From: Sialis fuliginosa
Taxonomy: Eukaryota > Arthropoda > Insecta > Megaloptera > Sialidae
Assembly: GCA_961205875.1 (NCBI GenBank)
Contig: OY540820.1
Location: forward strand, 3,348,001-3,412,000
Reading direction: 5' to 3'
Length of the DNA: 64,000 bases
Shown here: positions 6,417 to 59,796 of the stretch, in pieces
How the letters are laid out: every line of letters begins with the position of its first letter
How positions within the stretch are numbered: position 1 is the stretch's first letter
The notes under the pieces: generated by a model
Databases searched by the model: none
Told to the model about the DNA's origin: nothing
The model's input: only the letters and a program-made list of their open reading frames with translations
Translations under genes and position numbers: made by a program

Positions 6417-7405
6417 CCTTCCTATACCCGCGTATTGGTCTGCCAGACCGACAGATTACATTTTCGTTTTTTTATCAATAATTGAGAACGCTAAAACAAT
6501 GTGCTTACTGGTAGCTGCATGATTCGTTGCGATCTTCAATTTAGTGTGGCGCGAACGTTCTTGCGAACAGGACTTGTGCCAGTAAACGACACCAATTGGT
6601 CTGCGAGACCGACGCGGGTATAGGTGTTACAATTTTGAGTAAGTAATATTTTTTTATTTTTGTTATAATATGCGTTTATTTTTATAATTGTTGTATTTAT
6701 GTCATATTATGTAATTGTTTGTTACTTTTAGTTATATTTTTACTTCGAAATGGATGAAGAACAAATTAGATTAATGTTGGAGGAAGATGATTCGGATTCC
6801 AATTACGAAGACGAACACGACAGTGAGGTGGAAGATTGTGTTGAGGTGTTTGCCAAGAATGATAAGACAAAGACTTGCTGAAATATGTAAATTAGATGGT
6901 CCAGAGTCTTCATTATCGGCTAATAACAACAAAATAGGTCGTTGTTATTATTGTTGCTCAAAAAAAAACCGTAAGACGCGTTACAACTGTATTACTTGTA
7001 AGAATTTTTTTTGCTTGGAACATGCAATTATGGTATGCTCCGACTGATACAGTGGTGATACGTCGGTGAAGAAGTAGTTAGTTTTATCAGTTATTATCAG
7101 TTAGATTTTAGAGTTATTTTTAGTTTGATTTAAGAAAAATTATATTTTTGTTTAAGTTTTTGTAGCTCGTAAGAAAAAGTACCTTTATTTCAGAGGCTGT
7201 AATAAAAGACTGTTACTTACTAATTAAAGCAAATATTTTCTATAACTTTGGTTTATTTATTTCAACACATCCTTTACTACCAATAAACATTAATTTTACT
7301 AAGGCTGTCATAAATAAAAAAAAAAAAAACAGGCTCTAGAACTTTCGGTCCCAGACACCGTGCGCGGGTATATGTGTTATTCTATTTGGCGCGGGTATAG
7401 GAAGG
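6417..7405 (+). mobile_element. piggyBac element, 989 bp, internally deleted
   Basis: The terminal inverted repeat CCTTCCTATACCCGCG (6417-6432) is matched perfectly at 7390-7405. The element is flanked by TTAA at 6413-6416 and 7406-7409, the piggyBac hallmark. Shorter copies of the same terminal motif recur inside at about 6608-6625 and 7358-7375, and palindromic ggtctg-agaccgac motifs occur at about 6438-6452 and 6598-6613. The coding region keeps only both ends of a transposase. It cannot move itself, though its ends look usable by a related enzyme. Confidence 0.93.
6750..7047 (+). pseudogene. piggyBac transposase remnant: acidic N-terminus and Cys-rich C-terminus, catalytic core deleted
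   Basis: An ATG at 6750 gives 43 codons rich in D/E, starting MDEEQIRLMLEEDD, as at the N-terminus of piggyBac transposases, then a stop at 6879-6881. In another frame, from the ATG at 6859 to 7047, comes the C-terminal tail with a CYYC...C-x2-C...C-x3-H zinc-binding pattern. The whole DDD catalytic domain (normally several hundred residues) is missing. The deletion junction falls near 6835-6858, where the frames change. The protein would be inactive as a transposase. An expressed short form could in theory interfere with an active relative, but there is no evidence for that. Confidence 0.88.
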
Positions 7406-17096: not shown

Positions 17097-18389
17097 ATAC
17101 CGGGTGTTCCAGACCACCCGTCCACTGTTTTACGCCCAAACTATTGAAGATAGAGTTTTATGATAAAAAATTTACTATATACAATAAATATATACATATA
17201 TCAATAAAGAATTTCAGGAAAATATTTTCAACCCCCTAAAACTCCCCCTTAGGTTTGAGAGGTACAGTCGCCTGCAGAACTCGTCTGGCACCCTAAAGGC
17301 TAAAATCGCTTACAACAGATTCCAAATTTAAAGACAAACATCATCGGTTATCTTTTTCTACCAAGTTTAATATATTTAAATACTAAAATTCGGAATATCA
17401 AATATTTATTGCCACAAAATTTACGTATACAATTTTCAATAGATTACATAATAATTTAATTGCACAAATATATATGAGTACTATAAACGAAGAGTAGTTC
17501 TTTATCTAGCAAATGAATTTCAAAATATCTGTCTTTGTTTGATACATGGAGAAATGATTTAAATATTATAATAATCAAATGGGAGGACCCTAATAAGTTT
17601 GTGATAAACGAAAATGAATACAAACTGCAAGACCATTAATGCAGGTGACTGTACATGCCCGTTTCCCAGCAAAATCAAATGGAGATAATTTTAAGATCAT
17701 AAAAAAGTAAGAAATTTTTGTAAAAAAAATTTTTTCATACATTCAATTGTTTAGAAAATTAGGCGACTTGTTTCCAAATTTTCGGGTTTTACTTAAAGTG
17801 CTCTAGTTTCGTTAAATGTTAATGACATTTTATTTTTAAATTTTTATTTGAAAGTAGAAATAATGAACTTTCTAATGATGTATGATTATTTGAGATTTGG
17901 ATCATTTAAAGTGTTATTATAAAATTATAATTTTTTTTATTTTTTTTAATAAAATTTTTAATTTTCTTAAAAAAGTTGTTAATTTGAATATATTTTTTAA
18001 GATAAAGTACTAATTGATATATCATTCCATTTAAAAATTTTGAATTATCCCCAATTGAAATTTTGTATTTTTGATGTGTCGCGTATGACACTTTAATTTA
18101 TCCAAATCTCAAATAATCATACATCATTAGAAAGTTCATTATTTCAACTTTCAAATAAAAATTTCATTAACATTTAACGAAACTAGAGCACTTTCGTTCC
18201 ATTTGATTTTGCTGAGAAACGGGCATGTACCTCTCAAACTACTCCCCAAGGGGGAGTTTTAGGGGGTTGAAAATATTTTCCTGAAATTCTTTAGGGTGGA
18301 TATATATAGTAAATTTTTTATCATGAAACTCTATCTTCAATAGTTTGGGTGTAAAACATAGTGGACGGGTGGTCTGAAACACCCGGTAT
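17097..18389. repeat. Foldback element, copy 1 (interrupted)
   Basis: Ends ataccgggtgttccagacca and its reverse complement at 18370-18389 open long arms that match the element at 20248-21270 throughout. The left arm is split by a MITE at 17265-17651. No clear target duplication is visible. The frames at 17906-18091 and 18239-18430 are incidental. Confidence 0.9.
17265..17651. mobile_element. TA-inserted MITE, 387 bp, nested in foldback copy 1
   Basis: Terminal repeats CAGTCGCCTGCA and TGCAGGTGACTG (11 of 12 match) are flanked by TA at 17263-17264 and 17652-17653. The related foldback at 20248 has the unoccupied site ggggtacatgcc at about 20408, showing precise insertion with TA duplication, the Tc1/mariner pattern. 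No transposase sequence. Confidence 0.9.
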
Positions 18390-18565
18390 GTACTACAATG
18401 TACAATTACATTGCAGATATTTTTGATCAAATGACAAACGAGTACATTAGTACATATGAACCATTTTGAAACTCAAAGGATTAACAGTAGCTAATCAAAT
18501 GTTTTACTATACTGTAAAAAAAAACATTTCTATTTATTCTGTTTGTCAATAATTTATTTATAAAG

Positions 18566-19499
18566 CAGGGCTGGCCAACTCGCGGCCCGCGGCCAGATAT
18601 GAACAAATTATGTTTTCATAATGTTAATTTTAATTATCAGGTGTTTCAGAATGACTGAGGTTGGTTTTAATTTCCTGTTGTTTTCTTTAAAATATTGTTC
18701 TATTTGTATGACTTAACTAATCATTTTAATTGATAATTTTGTTTTACAATACACATATAACATATACAAAATTAGAATTTGAAGTATTTTTGTGAATAAA
18801 TAAATCCATTATTTATTGTTATTTTAAATACTTAAAACCATACTGGTATATTTTGTTGTTGGTTAAATATATATTTTTTAAATTTACTATGATTGAACAT
18901 TTAATTGTTTCCCCCTCGAATCGAATGAGACAAATTACAACCTTGTATCTGTGACGGGGCAAAATATTGAAATTTTTTACGCTTTTTATTTATTATACAA
19001 AAACGTAAATATCCAGTTGCTATGCGAAGTAGATAGTGGGTAATTTTTTTTCCTAAAATTCCTTCACTTATGTAGGATTTTTCTCGATGAATAAGATCAA
19101 TTACAACCCTTCATCTGCGACATGGGGCGAAATATTGAAGGTCGACTATATGTATAAAATCTTGTGAAAATAAGCTTTACATTTTTATGCTAATACATTT
19201 AAGAGTTTAGGGTTGGGAGGGGGGGGGGTTAAAGTTATTATATTATAACATAGATTATATAAGCTATCTATTGACTTTTTATTTATTGCTCTATGATTAT
19301 TAGTTCTGGTGATATAAGCTTTTAAAGTGTGACATATTTTTGTAATGTTCATGTTTCCGAGGTTATTCCCGGGGAAGACGCAGTTCTACTGAAAAAAAGA
19401 AAATAAATTGATTAGAAAAAAATTTAAAATCGAAAAATCCAATTAAAAAAAAATCTTATTTATGTGCGACCCTCGGAAAATTTGGGTCGGCCAGGCCTG
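18566..19499 (+). mobile_element. hAT-type element, 934 bp, non-coding
   Basis: It starts cagggctggccaactcgcgg and ends ggtcggccaggcctg. Flanks ttataaag and ttgtaaag are a 7 of 8 target duplication. It contains two direct copies of a ~55 bp block (18920-18972 and 19085-19140, with attacaacc and ggggc-aaatattga). No transposase-like frame. Confidence 0.85.
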
Positions 19500-19569
19500 T
19501 TGTAAAGGGTAATTTAAAATTACCGGAATGATAAAATGAATGAATAAAAAAATGCGTTGAAATTTAAAA

Positions 19570-19655
19570 TTTTGAAATCGGAGAACATTTTTTTTGTCTC
19601 AATCTAAAACGATCACATAGCTTCTCGTATCTTCGATATTGCGAGGAAGCAATAC
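19570..19655 (-). repeat. Reverse copy of the left end of the 10800 repeat family
   Basis: From atcggagaacattt to gcgaggaagcaat it matches the reverse complement of about 10800-10885 almost fully. Confidence 0.8.
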
Positions 19656-19659
19656 GATA

Positions 19660-20239
19660 GCTTTCAAAAAATCAGTTCATATTAGTACGAAATGAGTAAT
19701 AGACATAATATTTTTATTATGTACACAAACACATACTTATTTTATTGTATAACTAGAGAAAATATATTTCACACAATAATTCAAAGTACGTAGGTATTAT
19801 AAAACAACATAAAAATATAAATATAGGTAGAAACGATGTAAAAACAGGAAATCAAAATAGATACTGGAAAAACATGCTATAAGCATTTGTGCTTGAAATA
19901 AAATAATAACTAATTTAATATTTTATAATATGAAAGTAAAACCATGTTTTGTATTTGTCTATTTAAATTTTAATATTGTTTTGTTTGGAATGGAAATTTA
20001 AAAAAAATAAAACCGTAAAAGTTTTATCACGTATCTAATAAAAAAGGTGACAAAAAGGTAGGATGCCCTAGCTCTAGTGGAGACGGGCGGGGTAAAATAT
20101 AAATAAAATAAAACAATAATAGATTTTTTGTTCTTTTTGGGCGCCACGTGATTCCAAACTACTTCATCACAATAACTCAATAATAAAATCACGAAATTAT
20201 AAAAAGGGGCGGTTGTACTAAGAGCCATTCATAACTGAA
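19660..20239. other. AT-rich spacer, nothing recognised
   Basis: The minus-strand frame at 19998-20228 has a slightly GC-richer middle (gagacgggcggggtaaa) but no recognisable protein. Confidence 0.4.
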
Positions 20240-20247
20240 TTAAACAT

Positions 20248-21270
20248 ATACCGGATGTTCCAGACCACCCGTCCACTATGTTTTACGCCTAAACTATTGA
20301 AGATAGAGTTTTATGATAAAAAATTTACTATATATACATATATCGACCCAAAAGAATTTCAGGAAAATATTTTCAACCTCCTAAAACTCCCCCTAGTGGG
20401 GTAGTTTGAGGGGTACATGCCCGTTTCTCATCAAAATTAAATGGAGCGGTATATTCAAAAGTAGATAATTTTAAAGATCATAAAAAAGTAAGAAACTTTT
20501 GTAAAAAAAATTTTTTCTTACATTTAATTGTTTAGAAAATATGGCGAATTGTTCCAAAATTTTAGGGTTTTACTAAAATTGCTCTAATTTCGTTAAATAT
20601 TAATGAAATTTTATTTTTAAATTTCTATTTTTAAGTAGAAATAACGAAATTTTTAATGATGTATGATTATTATTAAAAATATGTAATACAAATTTTTTTT
20701 AAAATAAAATTTAAAATTTTCTTAACAAAAGTTGTTAATTTAAATATATTTTTTAAGATAAAGTACTAATTAATATATCATTCCATTTAAAATTTTTGAA
20801 TTATCCCCATTTGAAGTTTTGAATTTTTGATATGTCGCGTATGACACTTTAAATGACCCAAATCTCAAATAATCATACATCATTAAAAAGATCGTTATTT
20901 CTACTTTCAAATAAAAATTTGTTAATATTTAACGAAACTAGAGTGATTTTAGTAAAACCCTAAAATTTGGGAACAATTAGCCATATTTTCTAAACAATTG
21001 AATGTAAGAGCAAATTTTTTTACAAAAGTTTCTTACTTTTTTATGATCTTTAAAATTATCTACTTTTGGATATACCGTTCCGTTTGATTTTGATGAGAAA
21101 CTGGCATGTACCCCTCAAACTACCCCACAAGGGGGAGTTTTAGAGGGTTGAAAATATTTTCCTGAAATTCTTTAGGGTCGATATATATAGCAAATTTTTT
21201 ATCATAAAACTATATCTTCAATAGTTTAGGCGTAAAACATAGTGGACGGGTGGTCTGGAACACCCGGTAT
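20248..21270. repeat. Foldback element, copy 2, 1023 bp, exact 8 bp target duplication
   Basis: Ends ataccggatgttccagacca and ggtctggaacacccggtat open arms of roughly 430 bp on each side. TTAAACAT is duplicated exactly at 20240-20247 and 21271-21278. The 8 bp duplication points to a hAT, P or Merlin-type enzyme; no coding sequence is present to decide. Confidence 0.93.
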
Positions 21271-22870: not shown

Positions 22871-24448
22871 TTAGTCCAGGCTGGCTAGGCTAAAAAGTAC
22901 CTAAAATAGGAATTTTTGCCTACAGTTTTAATACTCACAGGATTTGTTACAAATGTGGTGTAGAATAATATCCTAATTTTGCTCCGATTTTGGTTGTCTT
23001 CGACAGGAGTTAACCATGGTTCAATTGCAAAATTCTTAAGATTTTCTGATTTTTACTAAATAGCGGTCTTAATAAGTAGGTATTATATAAAAAAAGTTTC
23101 AAATAAAAGCTATTCGCTATAAAATTCCCTAGTACCTTTATTTTGAAAAAAATAAAAACATTCATTTGTTTATCCGCTACGCTGATTAAAATGGCTGAAA
23201 ACACACCTTTTTTTTAAGCTGTAATAACTAATAAAGTTTAACGTTTTTTAAGTTGATACCCCTGGAAAATAAACAATCTGTAGTAAAGAACATTCACTGA
23301 AAATTAGGACCTGATATCTTTAATTGTTTTTGTTTTATTAAATTTTTAACAATGGAATAATGCTTGTCTTTGATTAACAATAAAAGATTTTGTAAAACCT
23401 TAATTTTTGTAAAACTGTTTGTATGTGTTCTCAAAGAATATAATCGATTCCCATCATAAAAAAGTAAAATTTTTCAATTCTTTGACAAATGGTAGCATTA
23501 AAATCTTATTGTTGAGTTTTTTTTTATTTTTAAGCCAATTCAATTGTTTTATAGAAACAGAAATATTAAAAAAATAGCCAAGAACCTGCTCTGAATAATT
23601 ATTTATCTATTGGTGAAAACCGCATTAAAATCGGTTTAGTAGTTTTTGAGATAAGCGGCAAAAGATATTGTATAAACAATCAATTTTCCTAAAAATTGTG
23701 TAGTGTGTAATATACATTAAATAACTCAAAAACTACTGAACTGATTTTAATGCGGTTTTCACCAATAGATTATTATTATTCAGAGCAGGTTCTTGGCTAT
23801 TATTTTTTCAATATTTCTGGTTCTATGAAACAATTGAATTGGTTTAAAATTAAAAAAAACTTAACAATAAGATTTTAGTGCTACCATTTGCCAAAGAATT
23901 AAAAATTTTCAATTTTTTATGGTGGGAATCGATTATATAAGTCTTGGATAACACATACAAACAGTTGTACAAAAATAAAGGGTTTACAAAAACTTTTATT
24001 GTTACTCAAAGACAAGCATGATTCCATTATTAACAATTTAATAAAACAAAAACAGTTGATGATATCAGGTTCTAATTTTCAGTGAATGTTCTGTTCTACA
24101 GTATGTTTATTTTCCAGAGGTATCAACTTAAAACCCGTTAAACTTTATTAGTTATTACAGCTTAAAAAAGTGTGTTTTTAGTGTTTTTAATCAGCGTAGC
24201 GGATAAACAAATTAATGTTTTATTTTTTTTCAAAATGGAGGTTGTAGGGAATTTTGTAGCGAATAACTTTTATCTAAAACTTTTTTTTGTATAATACTTA
24301 TTTAGACTACTATTTAGCAAAAATCAGAAAATCTGTCACGGACAACCAAAATCGGAGCAAACTTAGGGTATTATTCTATACCACTTTTGTAACATATCCT
24401 GTAAGTATTAAAACTGTACGCAAAAATAATCTCCACTGCCTGGACTAA
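22871..24448. repeat. 1.58 kb foldback element with long arms
   Basis: ttagtccaggc (22871) and gcctggactaa (to 24448) open arms of about 780 bp running to a short centre near 23650-23700. Arm identity is high but not perfect, with small indels. The flanks allow an AAT repeat but no convincing longer duplication. The minus frame at 23010-23204 lies in the left arm and is incidental. Confidence 0.92.
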
Positions 24449-30659: not shown

Positions 30660-31278
30660 TAGACACAAAAAGTTGTTTGGAAAGTTATTCCGATTGAATC
30701 TTTTGTTTTTATCTTATTATGGAGGTTGGCCCGATTATAAAAGTGCAAGGTACTTATTGGTCGGATATTGTTTAAACTACGAAAAGACTTTACAAAAGGC
30801 AAAAAAATGTTTTTTTTTTGAAATCAAACATTATTTTGTATCATCTTTAAATACTGGTATTTTAATCAATTCGAATTTTTTATATAATTTTCAAGATTAC
30901 AAATTGCAACCTCAGTTAATATGGATATGATACGAGAATAAATAACAAAAAAATAAAGAATTAGACCTCAAGAATAATCGGAACCTTAAATACAACGGAT
31001 ATATTAAAAGATTTTATTAATCAAGTAATCTAATATAAAAGATCAAAGCTATTTGTTTTTCTTTCTGATTAAATATACATATACAAACATTTTAAAAATG
31101 TTTCAAATATTTATATCTAATGTAAAATAAAAACATAATGTACAAGTAGGAAAATATGAAACATTTATAAATAACTGTTCTTTTCTGTATTCTCAGCACC
31201 TCCACCAGAAGTGTAAACATACATACCTTGAATGAAAACCGTGGAGCGTTGGTTAGAAGTCAGGTGTAGGCGAATGTA
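30660..31278. other. AT-rich spacer, nothing recognised
   Basis: No terminal repeats or coding signal beyond the tail of an incidental frame. Confidence 0.4.
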
Positions 31279-31350
31279 ATACAGGCTGTTTGATTCGGCG
31301 ATGCGGATATTTTGAAGGAAAGTAGAATGAGTCATTTAGAAGTGATTTAA

Positions 31351-32220
31351 GGGGTTAGGCCACTCTAGGATTTTCAAAAAATCGATTTTTTTTCATTGTT
31401 TTAAATGGTCTCTTAGGACCTCAAAAATGTTATCCGAAAAGATTATGCCCGGGAAATATCTCTAAGTACTTGTTTTTCAATGTATAGTACAAAACCGCCA
31501 GGGTTGTTTTTTTATCGATAATTGTGCTAACTTTTGTTTTGTTTTGTTAGTGTTATTGATTCGTTTTTATAATGAGTGACAAAGTGTATTGTGGTCAAAA
31601 AGGTGCAAAAAAGACACATACATACAGCAAGAGACCGAAAATATCTGGAAGAAGACCGCTGGCATCGTGGATTAAAGCTATTGCAAAATTATTCATGATT
31701 TTCTACTACTCAAAACTGCATTTTTTAAGTTGGCCGGAAACATAACTCAGATAATTTTCAACTGATTTACTTGAAATATTGAATATATCTTGAAAAATAC
31801 ATTATCTATGGAAGTACGTAGGATCTTTATTTTATATTGCATAGTTCATTTGTTATTAACAATTATCTGCTGATTTTTTAGGCAAATTTTTCACTTTCCA
31901 CTTTGGAAGTGCGCCATTTGACCAAAAATTAATATATCGAAAAAAACCTACGTACTATATCAGTTATTAGGTATATAAAAAAAATTGGCTTATTATAATT
32001 AAAAAATTACAGGAGCTGTTTGTCCGGCCGTGGACTCTGAAAAAACGGAGACGTCATCGGAAAAACGATGCACAGCCGCCATTTTGAAATTAATTTTAGT
32101 ATACAGTCACTGATATGTATAATAAATACTCTTTATTGGAATCTCGATTTATTTTGTAGTATTTCTGAAAAAAAATCCTAAAAAAACCTATTTTTTCGGC
32201 TTCTAGAGTGGCCTAACCCC
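31351..32220 (+). mobile_element. piggyBac-type MITE, 870 bp, TTAA target duplication
   Basis: The perfect 18 bp terminal repeat GGGGTTAGGCCACTCTAG is flanked by TTAA at 31347-31350 and 32221-32224. The other arm of the outer foldback has the unoccupied site: agtgatttaagaaaatatac when read in this direction (about 36578-36597). This is direct proof of insertion at TTAA. One small frame is retained inside. Confidence 0.92.
31572..31745 (+). CDS. 57-codon open frame inside the TTAA MITE, unrecognised
   Basis: It starts at an ATG and reads MSDKVYCGQKGAKKTHTYSK then a basic R-P-K-I-S-G-R-R-P segment. The frame ends at TAA 31743-31745. The first 35 residues look more protein-like (mixed codons, basic) than the A/T-driven tail, so they may be the start of a lost element-encoded protein cut by an internal deletion. 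No family recognised. Confidence 0.3.
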   Translation: MSDKVYCGQKGAKKTHTYSKRPKISGRRPLASWIKAIAKLFMIFYYSKLHFLSWPET

Positions 32221-32754
32221 TTAAGCAAATATACAAAGTGCAACAGTATTTTTATATGGGCCATTTTAGTAAATATTTGAAAAAACAGATTTTATACATG
32301 TTTATGGCAAAACTTCAAAAGTTAGAGCTTATATTTTTCAAAAATGATTTTTGTATTACTTAAATGTCTATGCTACACGATCAGATTAAAATAAAATTTA
32401 TGAAAAAAAAAAAATGGCTCAGTTTAACATTTGAAAACTTATAAAACTGATAAAATTATTTCTTTAAAGAATTATTTTATAAAATCTAGAACATTTATAG
32501 ATGTTCAAATGGTTTTAAAAATTGCTCTATTTCATACCCTTTCGAAAAACCTTCTATAATATCTACATGAACTGGATATTTTTGTTAAAAAAAACATACA
32601 TTTATTCCGGAATAAGTAAGAGTTTTCCATTTTTCCAGTGAGTCGATCCTAGTATGCTATTCTTAATAAGTCATTAAATACGTGATGCGATACTTTTCAA
32701 ACATTTTGCTATACTCATTGAACAGTGTAACTTCTATGCAAAGGCTTGAAAAAG

Positions 32755-32860
32755 ATGATTGTGTCAGACGAATGACGATTTTTTGTCGGTTTTTGGTAAA
32801 TGAAAATATCGAAGACGGCAATTTGATGAAGTGGAAGATCATTTAAAGGTAGATCTACCG
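32755..32860 (+). pseudogene. Oppositely oriented scrap of the same Tc1-like sequence
   Basis: The phrases gtcagacgaatg, gattttttgtcggttt and tggtaaatgaa match the minus-strand start of the 33006-33750 remnant. Here they run on the plus strand, so two fragments of related Tc1 sequence face each other about 0.9 kb apart. Confidence 0.55.
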
Positions 32861-33005
32861 GTAACAATGGTAGCTCTTGAAGAATTCTAGGTAATTCTCA
32901 GAATTCAATAGTGCAAACTACTGCGGACCAATCAGTTTATTGCCAATCACACTACCCCAGAGTGTGTTGTGATGGAACAATGTATATTTTTTCAAGTGCG
33001 GATTA

Positions 33006-33750
33006 CAGTCCCTGGCCAAATTATTAGACGCACTATAAGATTTTATGTAAAATGTTAATTATCAGGTGATACTATACAGCTTTATTGTTTTTACTAGATA
33101 CATACATGTGTATTTTTTTATTATCCACTTAATTATCTATTTTTTAACACAAATAAAACATCATTATTATAAAAAAAATATGTATTTATTAACTCTTGAA
33201 AAAAAATTGAAATTAATGTAATTAAATGTTAATATTTTGTTGTGCCACCTTTAGCAACTATGACAGCTTCAATTTTGCGCGGTATGCTATGAATGCAAGA
33301 GTGGATGTTGAATTCACACATGAATGATCTTTTCTAAGAGTTACGTTTTGTTTGTGTTTACATCTTTAGCCACTTCTCTTTTCATCAGCTCCCACACGTT
33401 TTTAATCGGATTCATATCGGGGCTATTACCCGGCCAATCCAACAGAGGGATATTTTGCTCTTCCAAAAAAGCTTTAACACACCGTGCTGTGTAACAGGGA
33501 GCTCCATCTTGCATAAAAATGAATGGTTCCCCATTTGGAAACCATTCTCTGAGCTGCGGAATCAACCGATTTTGTAAGACTAATAATATGGCCAGGGACT
33601 GTATATCTTTTATCATTCCAGTAATGGATGTTATGAAAATTGTTCGTCCTTTCTCTGGAGAATATGAATTCATCGATCTATAAAATACTTCGAGGAAATT
33701 ACTGTCTTCATTTACCATAAACCGACAAAAAATCTCCATTCATCTGACAG
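33006..33750 (-). pseudogene. Tc1-like transposase remnant with 3' terminal repeat
   Basis: On the minus strand, frame 33739-33341 contains FMQDGAPCYTA (second catalytic Asp), then DWPGNSPDMNPIKNVWELMK. The third catalytic residue, normally E in NPIENVW, is K here. After frame changes the usual C-terminus IPRKIEAVIVAKGGTTKY is readable at about 33232-33285. The element end CAGTCCCTGGCCAAATTAT lies at 33006, next to TA (33004-33005). A SDE-type first catalytic motif is visible only in a different frame near 33738-33746. The N-terminal DNA-binding domain is missing, cut at 33750 by the inner foldback. Family lengths are about 340 residues; under half remains, so it is inactive. Confidence 0.9.
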
Positions 33751-35776
33751 GATCGAGTCATTCCATGTCAAATCAACACAATTTTAATGAAAAATTTACC
33801 TCACCATCTCAGATTTTCATGAAATTTGGCACAATTGTACTATTCATTTAGACTTAGAAAAATATCAAATTTTATTGAGATATGTCTACTGGTTTTGAAA
33901 TTACAGCTATGTAAAGTTTTCAAAAATTGATCAAAAAACCGTGATGGAAAATTTTTGAAATGCTCTGGAAGCTGATCTAGTTGACTTAGAGAACTGGGCG
34001 GGGTGTCATTTTACAGCATATTTCACACCAATTCTAATGATATACAACACAATATGGGTTAAGAAAAAAAATGTTTTCAAAATCAAAGTCAAAATTTTGA
34101 TTTTTAATTTCACAACAAGTACGGTTTCAAAAATTTTCAAATTAATACCAAACATAGTCATTATAGTTGTGAATCACCTGGCAAAATATAAATGTGGGAT
34201 GACAATGGATTCTATGTTAAAATAATTTAAGACTGAAGCTCGAATTTAAAAATCGCTCTGTATTTAGACTATGAAAAATTCAACAATGCTAAAATGTATA
34301 CTTGCATGAACATGAACACTAATATGAAGTAACAATACATTACTAAATTCAAAATGGGCTATTTTTTGCCACAGAAGCATGGCCCTCGCATTACCACGGG
34401 CCCCCCAACTGGAATTGTTGCGAGCCCCTTAAGAAATTTTTTTTCGACCATACAGGTTTATTTGAACGACCTTTTTATGGTCTTTAAATAGAAAAAATAA
34501 ATAATATCAAAGTTTATTTTTTAGACCTTTCATTTAAAAATTTTAATTCATAAATTTATAATTCATTTTCAAGAAAAACATGAATTCTCCCAGTCGGGGT
34601 CACAGGATTTACTTTTGTATATATTTTTAATTATAACTGAAGATTTTTTGTAGTATTGTTGATTTATTTGCAACAAGCTTACTTACTTCAAAAATGATGA
34701 AAGCTAATAGTTTTATTTATTTATTTTTAATTCAAACTAAAGTCGATCCCATAAGGTTACCACATACAGCTTACATGTCATTGTATGCGTGAATAGTTTG
34801 ACATTAGTCATTAACAAATTGAAACTTTGAAACATGGATTACTGGTACTTAAAATATAACAATACAGCTTTTTATTACATTGAACTAGCTACTATGTCAT
34901 GTGTAAAATTTACCAATTTAGGCCTAACATTTTTTTAATAGCATAAATATTTCCTGTATACACAGTGATTTTTAAATTCGAGCTTCAGTCTTAAATTATT
35001 TTATCATTGAACCCATTATCATCCCACATTTATATTTTGCCAGGTGATTCACAACTATAATGACTATTCTTGGTATTAATTTGAAAAGTTTTGAAAACGT
35101 AAAAAAATTTTTTCGTAACAATTCCAGTTGGGGGGCCCGTGGTAATGCGAGGGCCATGCTTCTGTGGCAAAAAATAGCCCATTTTGAATTTAGTAATGTA
35201 TTGTTACTTCATATTAGTGTTCATGTTCATGCAAGTATACATTTTAGCATTGTTGAATTTTTCATAGTCTAAATACAGAGCGATTTTTAAATTCGAGCTT
35301 CAGTCTTAAATTATTTTAACATAGAATCCATTGTCATCCCACATTTATATTTTGCCAGGTGATTCACAACTATAATGACTATGTTTGGTATTAATTTGAA
35401 AATTTTTGAAACCGTACTTGTTGTGAAATTAAAAATCAAAATTTTGACTTTGATTTTGAAAACATTTTTTTTCTTAACCCATATTGTGTTGTATATCATT
35501 AGAATTGGTGTGAAATATGCTGTAAAATGACACCCCGCCCAGTTCTCTAAGTCAACTAGATCAGCTTCCAGAGCATTTCAAAAATTTTCCATCACGGTTT
35601 TTTGATCAATTTTTGAAAACTTTACATAGCTGTAATTTCAAAACCAGTAGACATATCTCAATAAAATTTGATATTTTTCTAAGTCTAAATGAATAGTACA
35701 ATTGTGCCAAATTTCATGAAAATCTGAGATGGTGAGGTCTATACCCTGTGTTGATTTGACATGGAATGACTCGATC
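33751..35776. repeat. Inner foldback, 2.0 kb, nearly identical arms
   Basis: gatcgagtcattccatgtca at 33751 is inverted at 35757-35776. The arms extend to about 34430 and 35105 and are so similar that both encode the same incidental 62-codon frame (34037-34225 plus, 35311-35499 minus). A GC-rich block, ggccctcgcattaccacggg, sits at the inner arm ends. A third copy of a ~120 bp arm block lies at 34975-35095. A 4 bp GATC duplication is possible but ambiguous. A ~20 bp difference just inside the left end (an A/T insert) is the largest arm mismatch. Confidence 0.93.
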
Positions 35777-36659
35777 ATATTATTCAAGCCTTTGCACAGA
35801 AGTAGGTGTTACACTGTCCAATAAGTATAACAAAATGAAAAGTATCGCATCACGTATTTAATGACTTATTAAGAATAGCATACTAGGATCGACTCACTGG
35901 AAAAATGAAAAACTCTTACTTATTCTGGGATAAAGGCTGTAGCCGGGTAAGCATGCAAAACATGCCTTTACATGGATTTGGCTGATTATTTTTTTGGAAG
36001 TCACATTCTATTAAACATTCAACCTGACCAAATATTAGCTCCCAAAAATTTATAGTTTTCGAAAAAAAATTTTTTTTTGATTTTCAAAAAAATATTTTTT
36101 TTTGATAATCTGTCAATCGAATTTGATGGTGCTTGAAATATATTATAGAGGTACTTATGACTCATCAGAGGTAATTTTATTATGATCCTCTGTACATAAT
36201 AAACCAGAAAAAAAATTTATAAAATTTAAAAAATCAAAAAAGACCATGTTGTCTTCGGAAGGCAATCACAATTTTTTAATATATTATACCTTGTATGTAC
36301 CCAAACAACATATCAAAATCCCAAATTGATACAAAGGGTATAACATACTCGTATAAATTCGCATGCGGTCGTATCGGAGTGGCGCGAGCGTGGCGCGGGC
36401 GAGTGCAAGTGTCTTAATACTTTTAAAATATCTCTAATTTAAATCATCTAATAAAAATCATGTTTGAAAAATATGGGCTCTGTAACTTTTGAACTTTTGC
36501 CATTAACATGTATGAATCTGAGTTTACTTCAAAAATTTACAAAAATGGCTGATATAAAAAAACTGTTACACTTTGTATATAGGTATATTTTCTTAAATCA
36601 CTTCCAAATTACTTCAAAATATTCGTATCGCCGAACCAAATAGCTTGTATAATACATAC

Positions 36660-37395
36660 CTATTATTAATATTTTAGGAATTTCTGTAGAATATAAACAA
36701 AACAAAAATTCAATAAAATAATCAGAATATATTTTTCAGATGAAGAAATATTAAAAAAAAATGTAAAACATATACATTACTTATGCACCTTAAAATTTTA
36801 AAATAAACATATTCATTTTACGATTTTTGAGTAAAAAATCATTACACTTGAATTTATTTTTAAATCTCGTATATTATTGGTTTATTTAAATTAAGATAAA
36901 TTTTAAAATCTTGCGTCACAATGTAGCAAACATTAAAAAAGCATGCACTATAAAATACATGTACATCGGCTATTGTAAACGTAGTTGCTGCAAAGCTTGC
37001 AGAAGATATATTTCACAATTAAGAGAGATTTACGACAGCCCATTTTTATACGGCTATCTGAATTTTATACTTTACTTACCTGTCAATACGTCAGAGCGTC
37101 ACTTATTTGTTATATTGTATTTTTTTTCTTTCTAAGTTTCGTTCTTATTATTCCTATAAAGATTACTGTTAAAATATACGGCCTTCACTCGATATGGACG
37201 TTATTTATTGCTTGATATTTAGAAATTGCGCATAGATTTTTTACCCTCCTTTTTAATTTATTTCTTGTGATATATTAGATTTCTTTTACCCAATAAGTTT
37301 ATACTAGATTGAGGTAATTTGTAACTCATATATTTTAGTCATTATGCTAGGGATGATTATAAATTTTCTGTAATTAATTAGTTACATATAATTAG
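36660..37395. other. AT-rich spacer, nothing recognised
   Basis: Overlapping plus-strand frames at 36911-37215 show no protein similarity and are judged incidental. Confidence 0.4.
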
Positions 37396-44329: not shown

Positions 44330-45748
44330 TACGATACAATATTATTGTTGGTTACGATATTTCATAAAACAGATATCGGTGCTTACAATACATTGTCTGG
44401 CGGTTATTATTCTTTAAAAAGGAATGTCGGATACGATTATACGATAGTAAAAGTTTTAACAGATTTTTTAGCCGGAAAGAGAATCTTTTCGCTTGTCACA
44501 ATTAGTGGGACACTTTTTCAGTGTAACACAGTTTTGGTAAAAATTGTCATATTAATATGAAAATTCATAAAAATCATTAGTGTGATGTTGTTTCAAAGTC
44601 CAAAGAGTGAAAACATTGTGCGTTCATCGATAGCGGGTGTACAACCCTTGGAGGGGTGAAAAATGGAAAGTGGAAATTTCAAGTATTGAAAAAAAAGTTT
44701 AAAAACTGTTTATTCCAAGATAATGATAAAATTCACATTAATTTTTATACGTAGAACTTATTTGAACCCTAAAGGTATAAATTATTTTTTTAAATCAATA
44801 TTTAATTTTATTTACCACCTGTTATCATCCCCTAAATTTAGGTTATTAGAAATATAGGAAAATATGAAAGAAATTTTAAAAATCTTCAAGGGTTGTTAGA
44901 AATAATCACAATAAATATCAATTTACAAGTTCAATAAAATCCAGTAATTTTCAACCACTTTTCTACCCTTTAATATTCAACCCCCTGTGTATTACAATTA
45001 ATTCGAACAACGTAGGTAAAGAAAATTTTTTGAAATTTACAAAATAGGTAGTAAAGTGTATATACAACGGTATGTATGTTAAAAAACACAAATAAATTAT
45101 AAGGGTAGGCATCAACCCTTAAATACTAAACCGCCCCAAATAGTAGGGTAGAATATTAAATTTAAGTGTGATTTTATAAGAAATCAATTAATGCTCTTAT
45201 TTGAAGATTTTTGTGAAAATTTTGTGCACCACAATTCACCCCTACAGATGTAACTACCCTAAATTTAAAAAAATTACACTTTTTTTAAAACATCGTATCT
45301 AAAAATTCAGTGGAATTTTTTGTCATCCTTTCATAATATAAAAGGCCGACATTTGATCTTTCTACACCGGTAAAATTAAAACAATACACTATCAGGAACT
45401 ACCCTTAAATTCTTATTTCTTAAAAATAAAATAAATTTTATTTCAATTAATATTGAAAATATAGGTATCTATGGAAATTAATGAACAATTTACGAGTTTT
45501 TCGTATGTTTGGCTCAAATTAATTCAATCGTTTTGAGACGTTTCTAATAATGTATTGGTTTAGTTTTACCGGTAACGAAAGAACAAATGTCGGCCTTTTA
45601 TATTACGAAAGGATGAAAAAAAAAATACCACGGACTGTCTAGATATCATATTTAAAAAAATGTTTATATTTTTTTAAATTGAGGGTACCTATATCCGGAG
45701 GGGTGAATTGTGGTGCACAAAATTTTCAAAAAAATTGTTAAATAACAG

Positions 45749-46377
45749 TGTTGGCGCCACTATATTTATAGTGACGCGTTGTATATTTTCGTTTGAACAT
45801 GTTAGGGTGGTTCTTTGACTCTACATGTTTCAAATGCATTCATTCACGTTCTATAACACGAAGTGAATAGATTTCTATCTACCTTTGTGTTTTTGAATCC
45901 GGCTTATTAAGCGTTATTTTTAACCTTAAGTTAAAATAGGCCGTAATAATATATGTAAGTATATTTGTGTTATACATATTTGAGACAGAGTGATTTCATG
46001 TATTATTAGTGGTTATACATTTTGCTGTGCTATAGTGCATATTTTGAGTGTGTGCGTTCATAGTTATTGTGAGGTTCGGTGTGCGAGGAAATCTGGAGGA
46101 AATTAGGACCTGCTCCACAGATTGGCGATTGCCCTTTCCACGGCAAAGGTATCCTTTGAAACCTTCTCCTAAAACCTACACGCTGTTGGAGAGAACGCTG
46201 CAATCGGGATCTAAAGGTAAGGACTGGTTTTCTCTTAGGTATAGATCGATCGATCCAAGCGATCCGGGATTACAGTGTCACACCCATTTTGGGCGTATAT
46301 ACGTAAAAATAAATATTTGGGAAATGCTAACGGGTTTCAAAAATTGTGAACCAGAGTAAATCGCGGAAGCCCGTACA
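45749..46377 (+). mobile_element. Candidate BEL/Pao-type LTR, 629 bp
   Basis: It begins TGTTGGCGCC with a short palindrome (cactatatttatagtg at about 45758-45773) and ends CCCGTACA, giving TG...CA. An AATAAA signal lies at about 46309. It is followed within 8 bp by the primer-binding-like tggtccttcgaaccgg. It is GC-richer than the flanking palindrome. The frame at 46048-46359 lies inside it and is not a gene. No second LTR or gag-pol is in the window. Confidence 0.6.
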
Positions 46378-46384
46378 TTTTTTA

Positions 46385-46402
46385 TGGTCCTTCGAACCGG
46401 AC
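46385..46402 (+). promoter_or_regulatory. LTR-retrotransposon primer-binding site (BEL/Pao-like)
   Basis: tggtccttcgaaccgga follows the candidate 5' LTR. The TTTGGTCCTTCGAGCCGG phrase is characteristic of BEL/Pao leaders. Only about 30 bp of the internal region remains before foldback sequence resumes. Confidence 0.55.
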
Positions 46403-46977
46403 TCTACCTATAAAAGGACCATATTTTTCATAAAATCGCAATTGAATTCAATTTACAACCCTTTTATCGGGGGTGATTTAGTTTTTAAGGGTTGATGACT
46501 ACCCTTATAACTTATTTATGTTTTTTAACATACAATTCTGTTGTATACACAGTTTACTACACATTTAGTAAATTTCAACGTCTCAGAATGATTGAATTAA
46601 TTTTAGCGAAACTTACGAAAAACTCGTAACTTGTCCATTAATTTCCATAGATACCTATATTTCAATATTAATTGAAATAAAATTTATTTTATTTTTAAGA
46701 AATAAGAATTTTAGGGTAGTTCCTGATAGTGTATTGTTTTAATTTTACCGGTGTAGAAAGATCAAATGTCGGCCTTTTATATTATGAAAGGATGACAAAA
46801 AAATTCCTTTTCCATTTTTCACCCCTCCAAGGGTTGTACACCCGCTATCGATGAACGCACAATGTTTTCACTCTTTGGACTTTGAAACAACATCACACTA
46901 ATGATTTTTATGAATTTTCATATTAATATGACAATTTTTACCAAAACTGAAAAAGTGTCCCACTAATTGTGACAAGC

Positions 46978-52372: not shown

Positions 52373-52906
52373 CAGTAAAAGCTCTTTATTCGCGGGGTAT
52401 ATGTTCCATAAATATGCCGCGAATACAGAAACCGTGAATACGGAATGGTCATTTATATGGGATTATAGGGGATACGTTCCTAGGTGACAAAATAAATAAA
52501 CAAATACAATATAAAAAAATCAATTTAATTGAAGTTTTTGACCATATTGATTAATTATTATCTTCAGGCTTAGGCAATGGTTTAAAGAATTTTGTAATTT
52601 TTTCTTGCTTGGCAGTTTTTAAAAGCTCCTTCAATTCAGATTGATATTCTGCAGTGGCATTAGCAATTTGCCTCTTAAAAATAAGACTTCGTTCCATAGA
52701 CGGATCAATTTTCATAAAGAAATCACAAAGCTCATTTGCCATTCTTAAACCTTCACTAAGATTTTTCAAATTAAATGTCACGTTTCCTGATTAGATCCGC
52801 GAATAAAGAAATCTTTAGCCGCGAATATAGGAATTGGGCCGCATTTTTTTAATCCGCGAATAGTGAAAACGCGAATGAAGGAAGCGCGAATAAGGAGCTT
52901 TTACTG
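52373..52906 (-). mobile_element. pogo/Tigger MITE, 534 bp, TA target duplication
   Basis: The same ends as 42021-42649 in reverse orientation, flanked by TA at 52371-52372 and 52907-52908. It retains a different part of the transposase C-terminal region. Confidence 0.93.
52551..52781 (-). pseudogene. pogo/Tigger transposase C-terminal open frame
   Basis: 76 codons: MTFNLKNLSEGLRMANELCD, then FFMKIDPSMERS, and the end TAKQEKITKFFKPLPKPEDNN. This is the charged tail found after the DDE domain in Tigger/jerky-like transposases. It opens directly from the 5' terminal region with no catalytic domain, showing an internal deletion of most of the gene. A short tail protein could be made, but it would have no catalytic activity. 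Confidence 0.8.
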
Positions 52907-53834: not shown

Positions 53835-54540
53835 TTATTTTTGGAATTGCAATTTTTTTCATAATTAGTAGTAAAAAGCAAAAATAAAAAAAATATCAAT
53901 AATTTTGTCAATCTACAATAACCAGTGTTTCATAGACATTTACCAATAATAATATTGTATTATATTTGATATTTTACAAAAATTATTAATGACTTTTTAA
54001 ACACACTCTATATTTTTATTTATTAAAGCGATTGATACATATATTATCTGATTAAAAAAACTATTTATTTTGATAAACTTTATTCTAGAGAAGATGGGGT
54101 GACGCAATTTCTAATTTCCTTCATCCAAAAACGATTATCTCTCGGAGTTAATTAAAGTTTTTAATTAATTCATGGTACATAGATTTAACCTCTTCTTGCA
54201 CAAAGTATTAAATGTTTATTTACATAAATTAATAATAATAGCAATCTATAAAATTTTTTTTTCATTATTAATCATTTATATGTAGACTGGACATTTATTT
54301 CAGTTTTGCAATAAAAAATGAAAATTTTGTTCTTGAATATTTAAAAAAAATTAAAAATTTAATTTAAAAAATTTCATTTTCAACAAATTCTATAATTTTA
54401 ATAGGTAATCAAAATATGTATGTATTTATTAGTTACTATGTAGTATGTTTGTGTAGAATATAAGATTTATTTTGATAAGTCATAATGGCGATTTTAACAA
54501 AGGTAACTTTTATAAAAAATTTATAAAGAAATTAATATAT
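53835..54540. other. AT-rich spacer, nothing recognised
   Basis: No structure noted. Confidence 0.45.
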
Positions 54541-54546
54541 GTATTA

Positions 54547-55662
54547 GGGTGCTTTTTTTTGCGACTATTTTTTTTTTCACTCCCACCTCAAAATTTTCTT
54601 GGAAATACCTCAAAAAAAATTCCCTGAAAATTGGAGCCCTTAATATTAATATTAAGTACTCGCTTTCAGCGTTTAAAGATTTCCCATTGAAAATACACGT
54701 AAACTTGAACTTTTTTTTTTACTTTTTATAGCTCAGAGGCATTTTATCCTATTTGAACGTTTGAAAAACCAAATTACGCAGAATTAAATGTTCTATAAAA
54801 GTATTTATTGCAACGAAACTGTAACTTACAAGGGTGAGACAGTACAGGTGATTAAAGTCAAATTTTTCATGAATTTCTTGTTTTTTCATTGTTATTTCAT
54901 AAATGGCTGAAAATACAGAAAAAGTTTAAATAAAAAAGTTGTAGCAAATTCAATTTTCTTCAAAAAAGATCCTGAGCATCAAATCTCTATTATTGATATT
55001 TTTCAAGATAATAAGCTTTTTGTTTTTTATGATTTACGATTTTCATGAATTCGCGACTCTAATTATTAAAAACAATTTTTTTTAAAAGTTATTATCTACT
55101 TTTTCAAAGTCAAGAAGAAAAGAAGAGGTAAATAACCTCAAATAGATGTTCTTTATGTTCATGAAAATCGTAAATCATAAAAAACAAAAAGCTTATTATC
55201 TTGAAAAATATCAATAATAGAGATTTGATGCTCAGTATCTTTTTTGAAGAAAATTGAATTTGCTACAACTTTTTTATTTAAACTTTTTCTGTATTTTCAG
55301 CCATTTATGAAATAACAATGAAAAAACAAGAAATTCATGAAAAATTTGACTTTAATCACCTGTACTGTCTCACCCTTGTAAGTTACAGTTTCGTTGCAAT
55401 AAATACTTTTATAGAACATTTAATTCTGCGTAATTTGGTTTTTCAAACGTTCAAATAGGATAAAATGCCTCTGAGCTATAAAAAGTAAAAAAAAAAAAGT
55501 TCAAGTTTACGTGTATTTTCAATGGGAAATCTTTAAACGCTGAAAGCGAGTACTTAATATTAATATTAAGGGCTCCAATTTTCAGGGAATTTTTTTTGAG
55601 GTATTTCCAAGAAAATTTTGAAGTGGGAGTGAAAAAAAAAATAGTCGCAAAAAAAAGCACCC
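54547..55662. repeat. 1.1 kb near-perfect palindrome, TA target duplication
   Basis: gggtgcttttttttgcgact at 54547 is inverted at 55643-55662, with TA on both sides (54545-54546, 55663-55664). The arms are about 540 bp and almost identical: the incidental frames 54549-54731 (plus) and 55451-55660 (minus) read the same 58 residues. The loop is near 55085-55130. Confidence 0.95.
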
Positions 55663-55692
55663 TAAATTATGTATATTATGTAAAATATATAC

Positions 55693-58995: not shown

Positions 58996-59154
58996 AATAA
59001 AACTACATTTTTTGGTCTTGCAGCATCGATTTATTACGCTTTATTTATCCAATTAATCTGAAATTTTCATGAAAAATTTACAACAACTATATATCTTTCA
59101 TTACACGCATGAGATTATTTTTTCAATTACTTTTTAACAAAAAATAAATTAAAT

Positions 59155-59533
59155 ATCCCGGGAAAAAATTCAGATCTGAAGTGATCAAATCAGATCCCGA
59201 TAGATCTGCATTTTGAGACATCATATTTTTTCACTGGTTTTTGATCTATGGAGACCTGCAAAGATCTACAAATATCTACAAAGATCTACAACGATCTACA
59301 AAGTTCTCTGAAGATCGTTGAAATTTTCTTGAATTGTCAACGTTTCAGTCTCTATCACGATCTTCAACGACTTTAGAGATCTTTGTAGATCGTTGTAGAT
59401 TTTTGTAGGTCGTTGTAGATCTTTGCAGGTTTCCACAGATCAAAAACCAGTGAAAAAATATGATGTTGTCTCAAAATGCAGATCTATCGGGATTTGATTT
59501 GATCACTTCAAATCTAAAATTTTTTCCCGGGAT
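59155..59533. repeat. 379 bp hairpin with agatctacaa internal repeats
   Basis: atcccgggaaaaaatt and its inverse at the right end open a stem nearly through the whole element. Each arm holds several agatctacaa / ttgtagatct repeats near the loop (59255-59420). Confidence 0.93.
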
Positions 59534-59796
59534 GTTTTTTTTGATGGAAAAATGAAATTTTCATTTTCATTGACAACCATTTTGTAAAAAAATAAAAATA
59601 GAGAAAAGGGTTGTAAATGTACATTTATTAATTGCCTGGTCAACAAATCGACGACACGTGTGTAGTGTGTGTTGAGCCAGGCCTGCACAAGCAAACACAC
59701 TCGCAGATGCATGTATAGAGTTTCAGATGGTCTATTACCGATCTGGTTTTAAATTCAAGACACGCTTGTGATATTTACTCCCGTGTTTTTCTTTGA

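Follow-up and report, generated by a model that had tools for sequence, protein, structure and literature searches.

Evidence for episodic arm-to-arm conversion in a foldback transposon family with a copy inserted in a palindromic element of Sialis fuliginosa

Introduction

Within a copy of Galileo, a Drosophila element of the P superfamily, the two inverted arms are 98–100% alike, and it has been proposed that arms grow longer when one is repaired with the other as template (PMC3573991). Other elements inserted in one arm of Galileo can spread to both, and its target duplications have a length of 7 bp (PMC4168063). For bacterial insertion sequences, the overwriting of one terminal repeat by the other during recombination between both has been described (PMC3004938). 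Target duplications of 4 bp are known for Sola2 elements, those described having ends of 12 to 21 bp and either coding for a transposase or being derived from coding elements (PMC3627910), and for Ginger2, the Ginger termini being TGTNR (PMC2836005). Here, the positions 31200-36700 of a 64,000-nt window of the Sialis fuliginosa genome (C12:3348001-3412000) were analyzed, in which a foldback element with nearly identical arms (the inner foldback) is located within a 5.4-kb palindromic element (the outer element).

By analogy with the dating of long terminal repeat elements, it is tempting to date an insertion by how alike its inverted arms are, and for foldback elements this can fail. The bacterial insertion sequences with converted terminal repeats belong to the genus Wolbachia. 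In the inner foldback family, single diagnostic bases show how such a clock can go wrong, and at least 40 dispersed, near-identical copies allow conversion tracts to be read.

Results

The inner foldback family

For all genome-wide comparisons, matches were sought across the 392-Mb assembly (20 contigs). Using the first 1,362 nt of the inner foldback as query, 165 candidates were obtained, 40 of which were scored. All 40, the window copy included, have an identity of at least 95% over at least 1,301 nt. Twenty copies were read (L030-L049, where L030 is the window copy), consisting of the 12 best-scoring and eight of the other 28 scored copies. They are 2,000–2,018 bp in size with arms of 655–669 nt, and each of the 20 carries the same 10-bp sequence GAGTCATTCC at its start and end as well as a perfect 4-bp target duplication. 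With long inverted arms that reach the element ends and a target duplication of constant length, the family belongs to the foldback-type DNA transposons. No stop-to-stop frame of more than 88 amino acids was found in the inner element. A description of the family was not found in the open-licence literature, searched by end motif and by topic.

The window copy spans 2,018 bp (33755-35772) and is flanked by the target duplication GATC at 33751-33754 and 35773-35776. Its left arm (33755-34423, plus strand, 669 nt) and its right arm (35113-35772, minus strand, 660 nt) are identical in 658 of 664 aligned columns. Five of the six mismatches cluster with a 9-nt gap in a single block close to the tip; the sixth is 4 nt from the inner edge. 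The loop additionally contains an older, partial arm copy on the minus strand (34958-35101), which matches either arm in 134 of 144 positions. The 9-nt block distinguishes the arms in 12 of 12 aligned copies, the arm lengths of the other eight being in agreement with it, the single-base difference near the inner edge is present in 20 of 20, and the partial arm copy recurs among the family members listed. These three are therefore ancestral features, and an origin of the partial copy as a local scar was rejected, as other inner copies carry the same one. At the junction of the partial copy and the full arm, a few bases (CG-AAC) recur at the left arm's inner edge, which might weakly hint at template switching.

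Signs of arm-to-arm conversion

Conversion was read from an alignment of the 40 arms of the 20 copies. Four times (L030, L031, L035 and L036), a substitution seen in no other copy was identified in both arms, where about 0.02 such coincidences would be expected; 23 private substitutions are found only in the left and 25 only in the right arm. For the window copy, the shared private base is at column 516, corresponding to positions 34271 and 35265. A base that is private to this copy and yet stands in both arms points to copying between the arms. In addition, the left arms of L030-L035 carry right-type bases at columns 75, 101, 175, 269, 512 and 602, whereas L036 is a mosaic in both arms, with left-type bases at 75, 101 and 175 and right-type bases at 269, 512 and 602.

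The mean distance between left and right arm is 11.35 within a copy and 13.8 between copies; a value as low as the former did not occur in 20,000 re-pairings. In a FastTree phylogeny, both arms of L030, L031 and L035 fall as neighbours. Shorter shared tracts occur in L037 (columns 101-196) and L038 (402 and 512), both of which belong to the copies with largely distinct arms (L037-L049). These patterns suggest that the inner arms were overwritten by arm-to-arm gene conversion, in tracts, in both directions and in some copies and branches, a process that can make arms identical at any age.

Because the shared private base points to copying, the age of the inner insertion cannot be taken from the likeness of its arms. 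The original prediction, which had taken this likeness as an insertion clock, fails in this respect. The loop is the better proxy for age, since most of it has no partner to copy from. Among its 689 columns, two are private to the window copy (a gap being counted as a difference), and the window loop differs from that of L033 at one and from that of L032 at two columns. Judged by the loop and not by arm identity, the window insertion looks recent. The family as a whole is young by the identity of at least 95% among all 40 scored copies.

The outer palindromic element

The predicted 5.4-kb outer inverted repeat (31279-36652) was confirmed. Between its arms, 360 of 401 columns are identical over four alignable stretches (57/63, 113/131, 146/156 and 44/51), for which searching the whole window gave E-values of 4e-56, 1e-31, 2e-9 and 4e-6. 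The outer ends are thus alignable over more than 100 bp, and the inner arms are not equally diverged: as had been claimed, they are far more alike (658/664) than the outer arms (Fisher P 9e-13). In a control, inverted repeats were absent from all five dinucleotide shuffles of the window; the scan covered arm spacings of up to 3 kb, a range that does not include the outer pair.

The element itself extends from 31282 to 36647 and represents a long member of an abundant palindromic family, with TA at 31280-31281 and 36648-36649. Its left arm (plus strand) consists of a tip (31282-31346), which matches also L022, L050 and L051, and an inner part (32225-32804). On the minus strand, the right arm begins with a short piece at 33707-33750 that pairs with 32762-32804, continues at 35777-35934 and ends with a tip at 36453-36647; the latter two are aligned to the left arm and match other copies. 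The 518 nt in between (35935-36452) have no alignment with the left arm. Since the left-arm segment 32353-32600, which the right arm lacks, is family sequence, it is the right-arm segment that stands in its place. A GC-rich patch was observed near 36380 within this replacement.

The search for the outer family with the inner part of the outer left arm gave 559 candidates, 40 of which were scored. The 39 other places match in single stretches from query position 1–12 to 462–580 of 580, and an adjacent match on the opposite strand, often short, was found at 32 of them (both hand counts). Only two of the 39 (C3:35853916 and C4:32143937) reach beyond query position 541; the window copy retains the longer arm together with a centre. 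Reading of two outer copies showed palindromes at 43-1221 in L050 (arms 83% alike) and at 82-1187 in L051 (82%). A lone outer end (L022, 6870-7059) was the sole match of a BLAST search with nine element pieces in the 200 kb around the window; no copy of the other three elements of the locus was found there.

The edges TA-CAGG are shared by the window copy, L022 and L050, which suggests TA as the target of the outer element. It is best explained as an old, non-autonomous palindromic DNA transposon. The longest run of identical columns between its arms is 77 in a background of about 90% identity (column permutation, P 0.004; tested only after the run had been noticed), and could reflect conversion or constraint. 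General homogenisation is not visible in the outer family, with the arms of L050 and L051 being only 82–83% alike.

Inserts in the left arm and in the centre

The left arm of the outer element is interrupted by a miniature inverted-repeat transposable element (MITE; 31347-32224) with TTAA at 31347-31350 and 32221-32224. As predicted, it is present in one arm only. Empty sites were found in the outer right arm, in L022, in one of the two L050 arms and in both L051 arms. A search with 31279-31600 resulted in 554 candidates, 40 of which were scored. The 39 other matches start at query positions 56–101, and 32 of them at 66–69, which is the MITE edge. In eight loci, the window included, TTAA adjoins every MITE end that was found (both ends in four and one end in four loci). 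The TTAA target duplication agrees with a piggyBac-like MITE. Other superfamilies target TTAA as well. At L052 (C7:5350780-5351060), a member of the MITE family in opposite orientation abuts the rearranged arm of another outer copy, by eye apparently at the same TTAA, which looks like a shared hot spot or a coincidence between two abundant families.

A Tc1-like element is located at 33006-33601 on the minus strand. Its terminal repeats (33004-33027 and 33580-33603) match in 23 of 24 positions, TA is present at each edge, and a C-terminal DDE_3 piece is carried as a transposase remnant, in agreement with the predicted broken Tc1 transposase. TA duplication, matching terminal repeats and DDE domain together assign it to Tc1/mariner. 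The piece lies in a 132-amino-acid frame, the longest stop-to-stop frame in 31200-36700, with E-values of 1.8e-10 for DDE_3 and 2.6e-11 for the alignment to the Sleeping Beauty transposase. The DDE_3 match starts at residue 58, and the Tc1 end corresponds by arithmetic to residue 46. We take the residues before 46 to be flanking DNA that is open by chance; the Sleeping Beauty alignment begins weakly at residue 39, a few residues past the Tc1 edge. The element is thus an internal-deletion derivative that retains both ends.

Order of insertions

According to the original prediction, the inner foldback cuts the Tc1 remnant at 33750. This was ruled out by the presence of both Tc1 ends: the inner foldback starts 150 bp beyond the Tc1-like element, and the sequence 33707-33749 matches the outer left arm at 32762-32804 in 39 of 43 positions. 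The foldback is therefore located in the outer right arm and the Tc1-like element in the outer centre. Instead of the four nested layers that had been proposed, three inserts lie side by side in one host element, and the nesting is two deep. From the predicted order of outer element, Tc1 and inner foldback, the first step holds. The outer element was there first, and the three inserts, perhaps also the replacement 35935-36452, are younger. No insert interrupts another, and thus the mutual order of the three, including that of Tc1 and inner foldback, is not written in the sequence.

Palindromes and other elements nearby

With a minimum arm length of 100 columns, 38 inverted repeats were counted in the 100 kb left of the window, 27 within it and 23 in the 100 kb right of it; the numbers of nested pairs are 23, 18 and 7, respectively. 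Foldbacks are thus ordinary in this neighbourhood. Long palindromes with little or no loop and arms 82–96% alike are located at 1-962, 20248-21270, 22912-24427, 54533-55678 and 59151-59537. The palindrome 20248-21270, with the ends ATACCGG, is part of a cluster of related direct and inverted copies (17097-21270). A second nested inverted repeat is present at 44491-46977, with outer arms 93% alike (44491-44679 and 46800-46977) and inner pairs of 83–96%.

Two short frames, 6775-7047 (plus strand) and 52551-52790 (minus strand), resemble the cysteine-rich tail of piggyBac and the tail of pogo/Tigger, respectively; neither had a Pfam match above the cut-off. Scans of the window for Rfam families and for tRNAs gave no match, and scans of IMG/VR with four element ends gave a single one (contig L001), a chance match.

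Discussion

The locus is an ordinary nested cluster, and the inner family is a clear case of episodic arm-to-arm conversion. One outer element would have been struck separately by the TTAA MITE, the Tc1 deletion derivative and the 2-kb foldback, all of them non-autonomous DNA transposons. The inner family comprises at least 40 full-length, near-identical copies; its transposition is presumably of the cut-and-paste type, with a transposase that would be made elsewhere and act in trans. Conversion in the family may occur when a break in one arm is repaired, or through template switching at a hairpin, the other arm serving as template in either case. For the joint reading of three separate insertions in an old palindromic host and an arm-converting inner family, we estimate a probability of about 0.87. 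It builds on directly observed features: the anatomy, the target duplications, the empty sites, the copies, the shared private changes and the mosaic arms.

Several points weigh against this reading. The right arms of different copies are closer to each other (mean distance 8.7; 12.1 for the left arms) than the two arms of one copy, and 13 of the 20 copies (L037-L049) keep arm differences at 10–24 columns. The choice of the 20 copies depended partly on an undisturbed second arm, and the conversion of the base at 34271/35265 may have taken place not at the window site but earlier, in a source copy outside the sample. No transposase of the inner or the outer family was found, none having been sought genome-wide, so that the evidence for cut and paste consists of the target duplications. 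Considering the close right arms and the 13 copies with distinct arms, conversion is regarded as episodic and not general.

That the inner arms are alike from the youth of the family, without any conversion, would agree with the at least 95% identity of all 40 scored copies and with the mean distances, which are smaller between the right arms of different copies than between both arms of one copy. However, youth alone cannot place the same new base twice, as seen in the four private changes present in both arms, nor does it explain why 13 copies have 10–24 arm differences and six copies of one branch only 1–7; we consider this explanation improbable. Long near-identical inverted matches are a known risk for assemblies, and the inner arms do contain one with 625 of 626 positions identical (33798-34423 and 35113-35738). 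A foldback artefact or a collapsed palindrome is nevertheless the least probable origin of the identical arms, because the 9-nt block (12/12, the other eight fitting) and the inner-edge base (20/20) distinguish the arms at 20 separate places, each with perfect target duplications.

Only slightly more credible than such an artefact is a locus built of four layers added one after another, in which the sequence of events (outer, Tc1, inner) is readable and arm likeness serves as clock. It draws on the much greater likeness of the inner arms and on an inner copy that is young by its loop, but is contradicted by the uncut Tc1-like element with both ends, by the outer-arm DNA at 33707-33749 and by arms that convert each other. 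An extension of the preferred reading is doubtful, although less so than these alternatives: foldback arms genome-wide might be overwritten copy by copy, during or after insertion, by hairpin or break repair, often enough to decouple arm identity from age across families. The 77-column run in the outer arms is a hint in this direction, whereas the diverged arms of L050 and L051 and the 13 inner copies with distinct arms argue against it. If it were true, the inner family would be a natural assay of conversion tract length and direction.

Compared to the described systems, the Tc1-like element fits Tc1/mariner in its TA edges, terminal repeats and DDE_3 domain and differs only by the internal deletion. 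The 4-bp target duplication of the inner family fits Sola2 or Ginger2. A coding link as in Sola2 could not be established for the inner family, no autonomous relative having been sought. The ends of animal Sola2 elements resemble GRG. In contrast to the TGTNR of Ginger, the inner family begins with GAGTC, and the ends are GAGTCATTCC in 20 of 20 copies. The conversion of a terminal repeat by its partner is shared with the bacterial insertion sequences, which differ in being bacterial and in the inversion of the interior that accompanies it. With Galileo, the inner family has in common the long near-identical inverted arms and the proposed copying of one arm from the other, and the locus the insertion of an element into an arm. 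Unlike the 7-bp duplications of Galileo, those of the inner family are 4 bp in length (20/20), and no transposase link was found. The inner family adds a new, well-resolved case to a known kind of process, the arm-to-arm conversion that has been invoked for Galileo.

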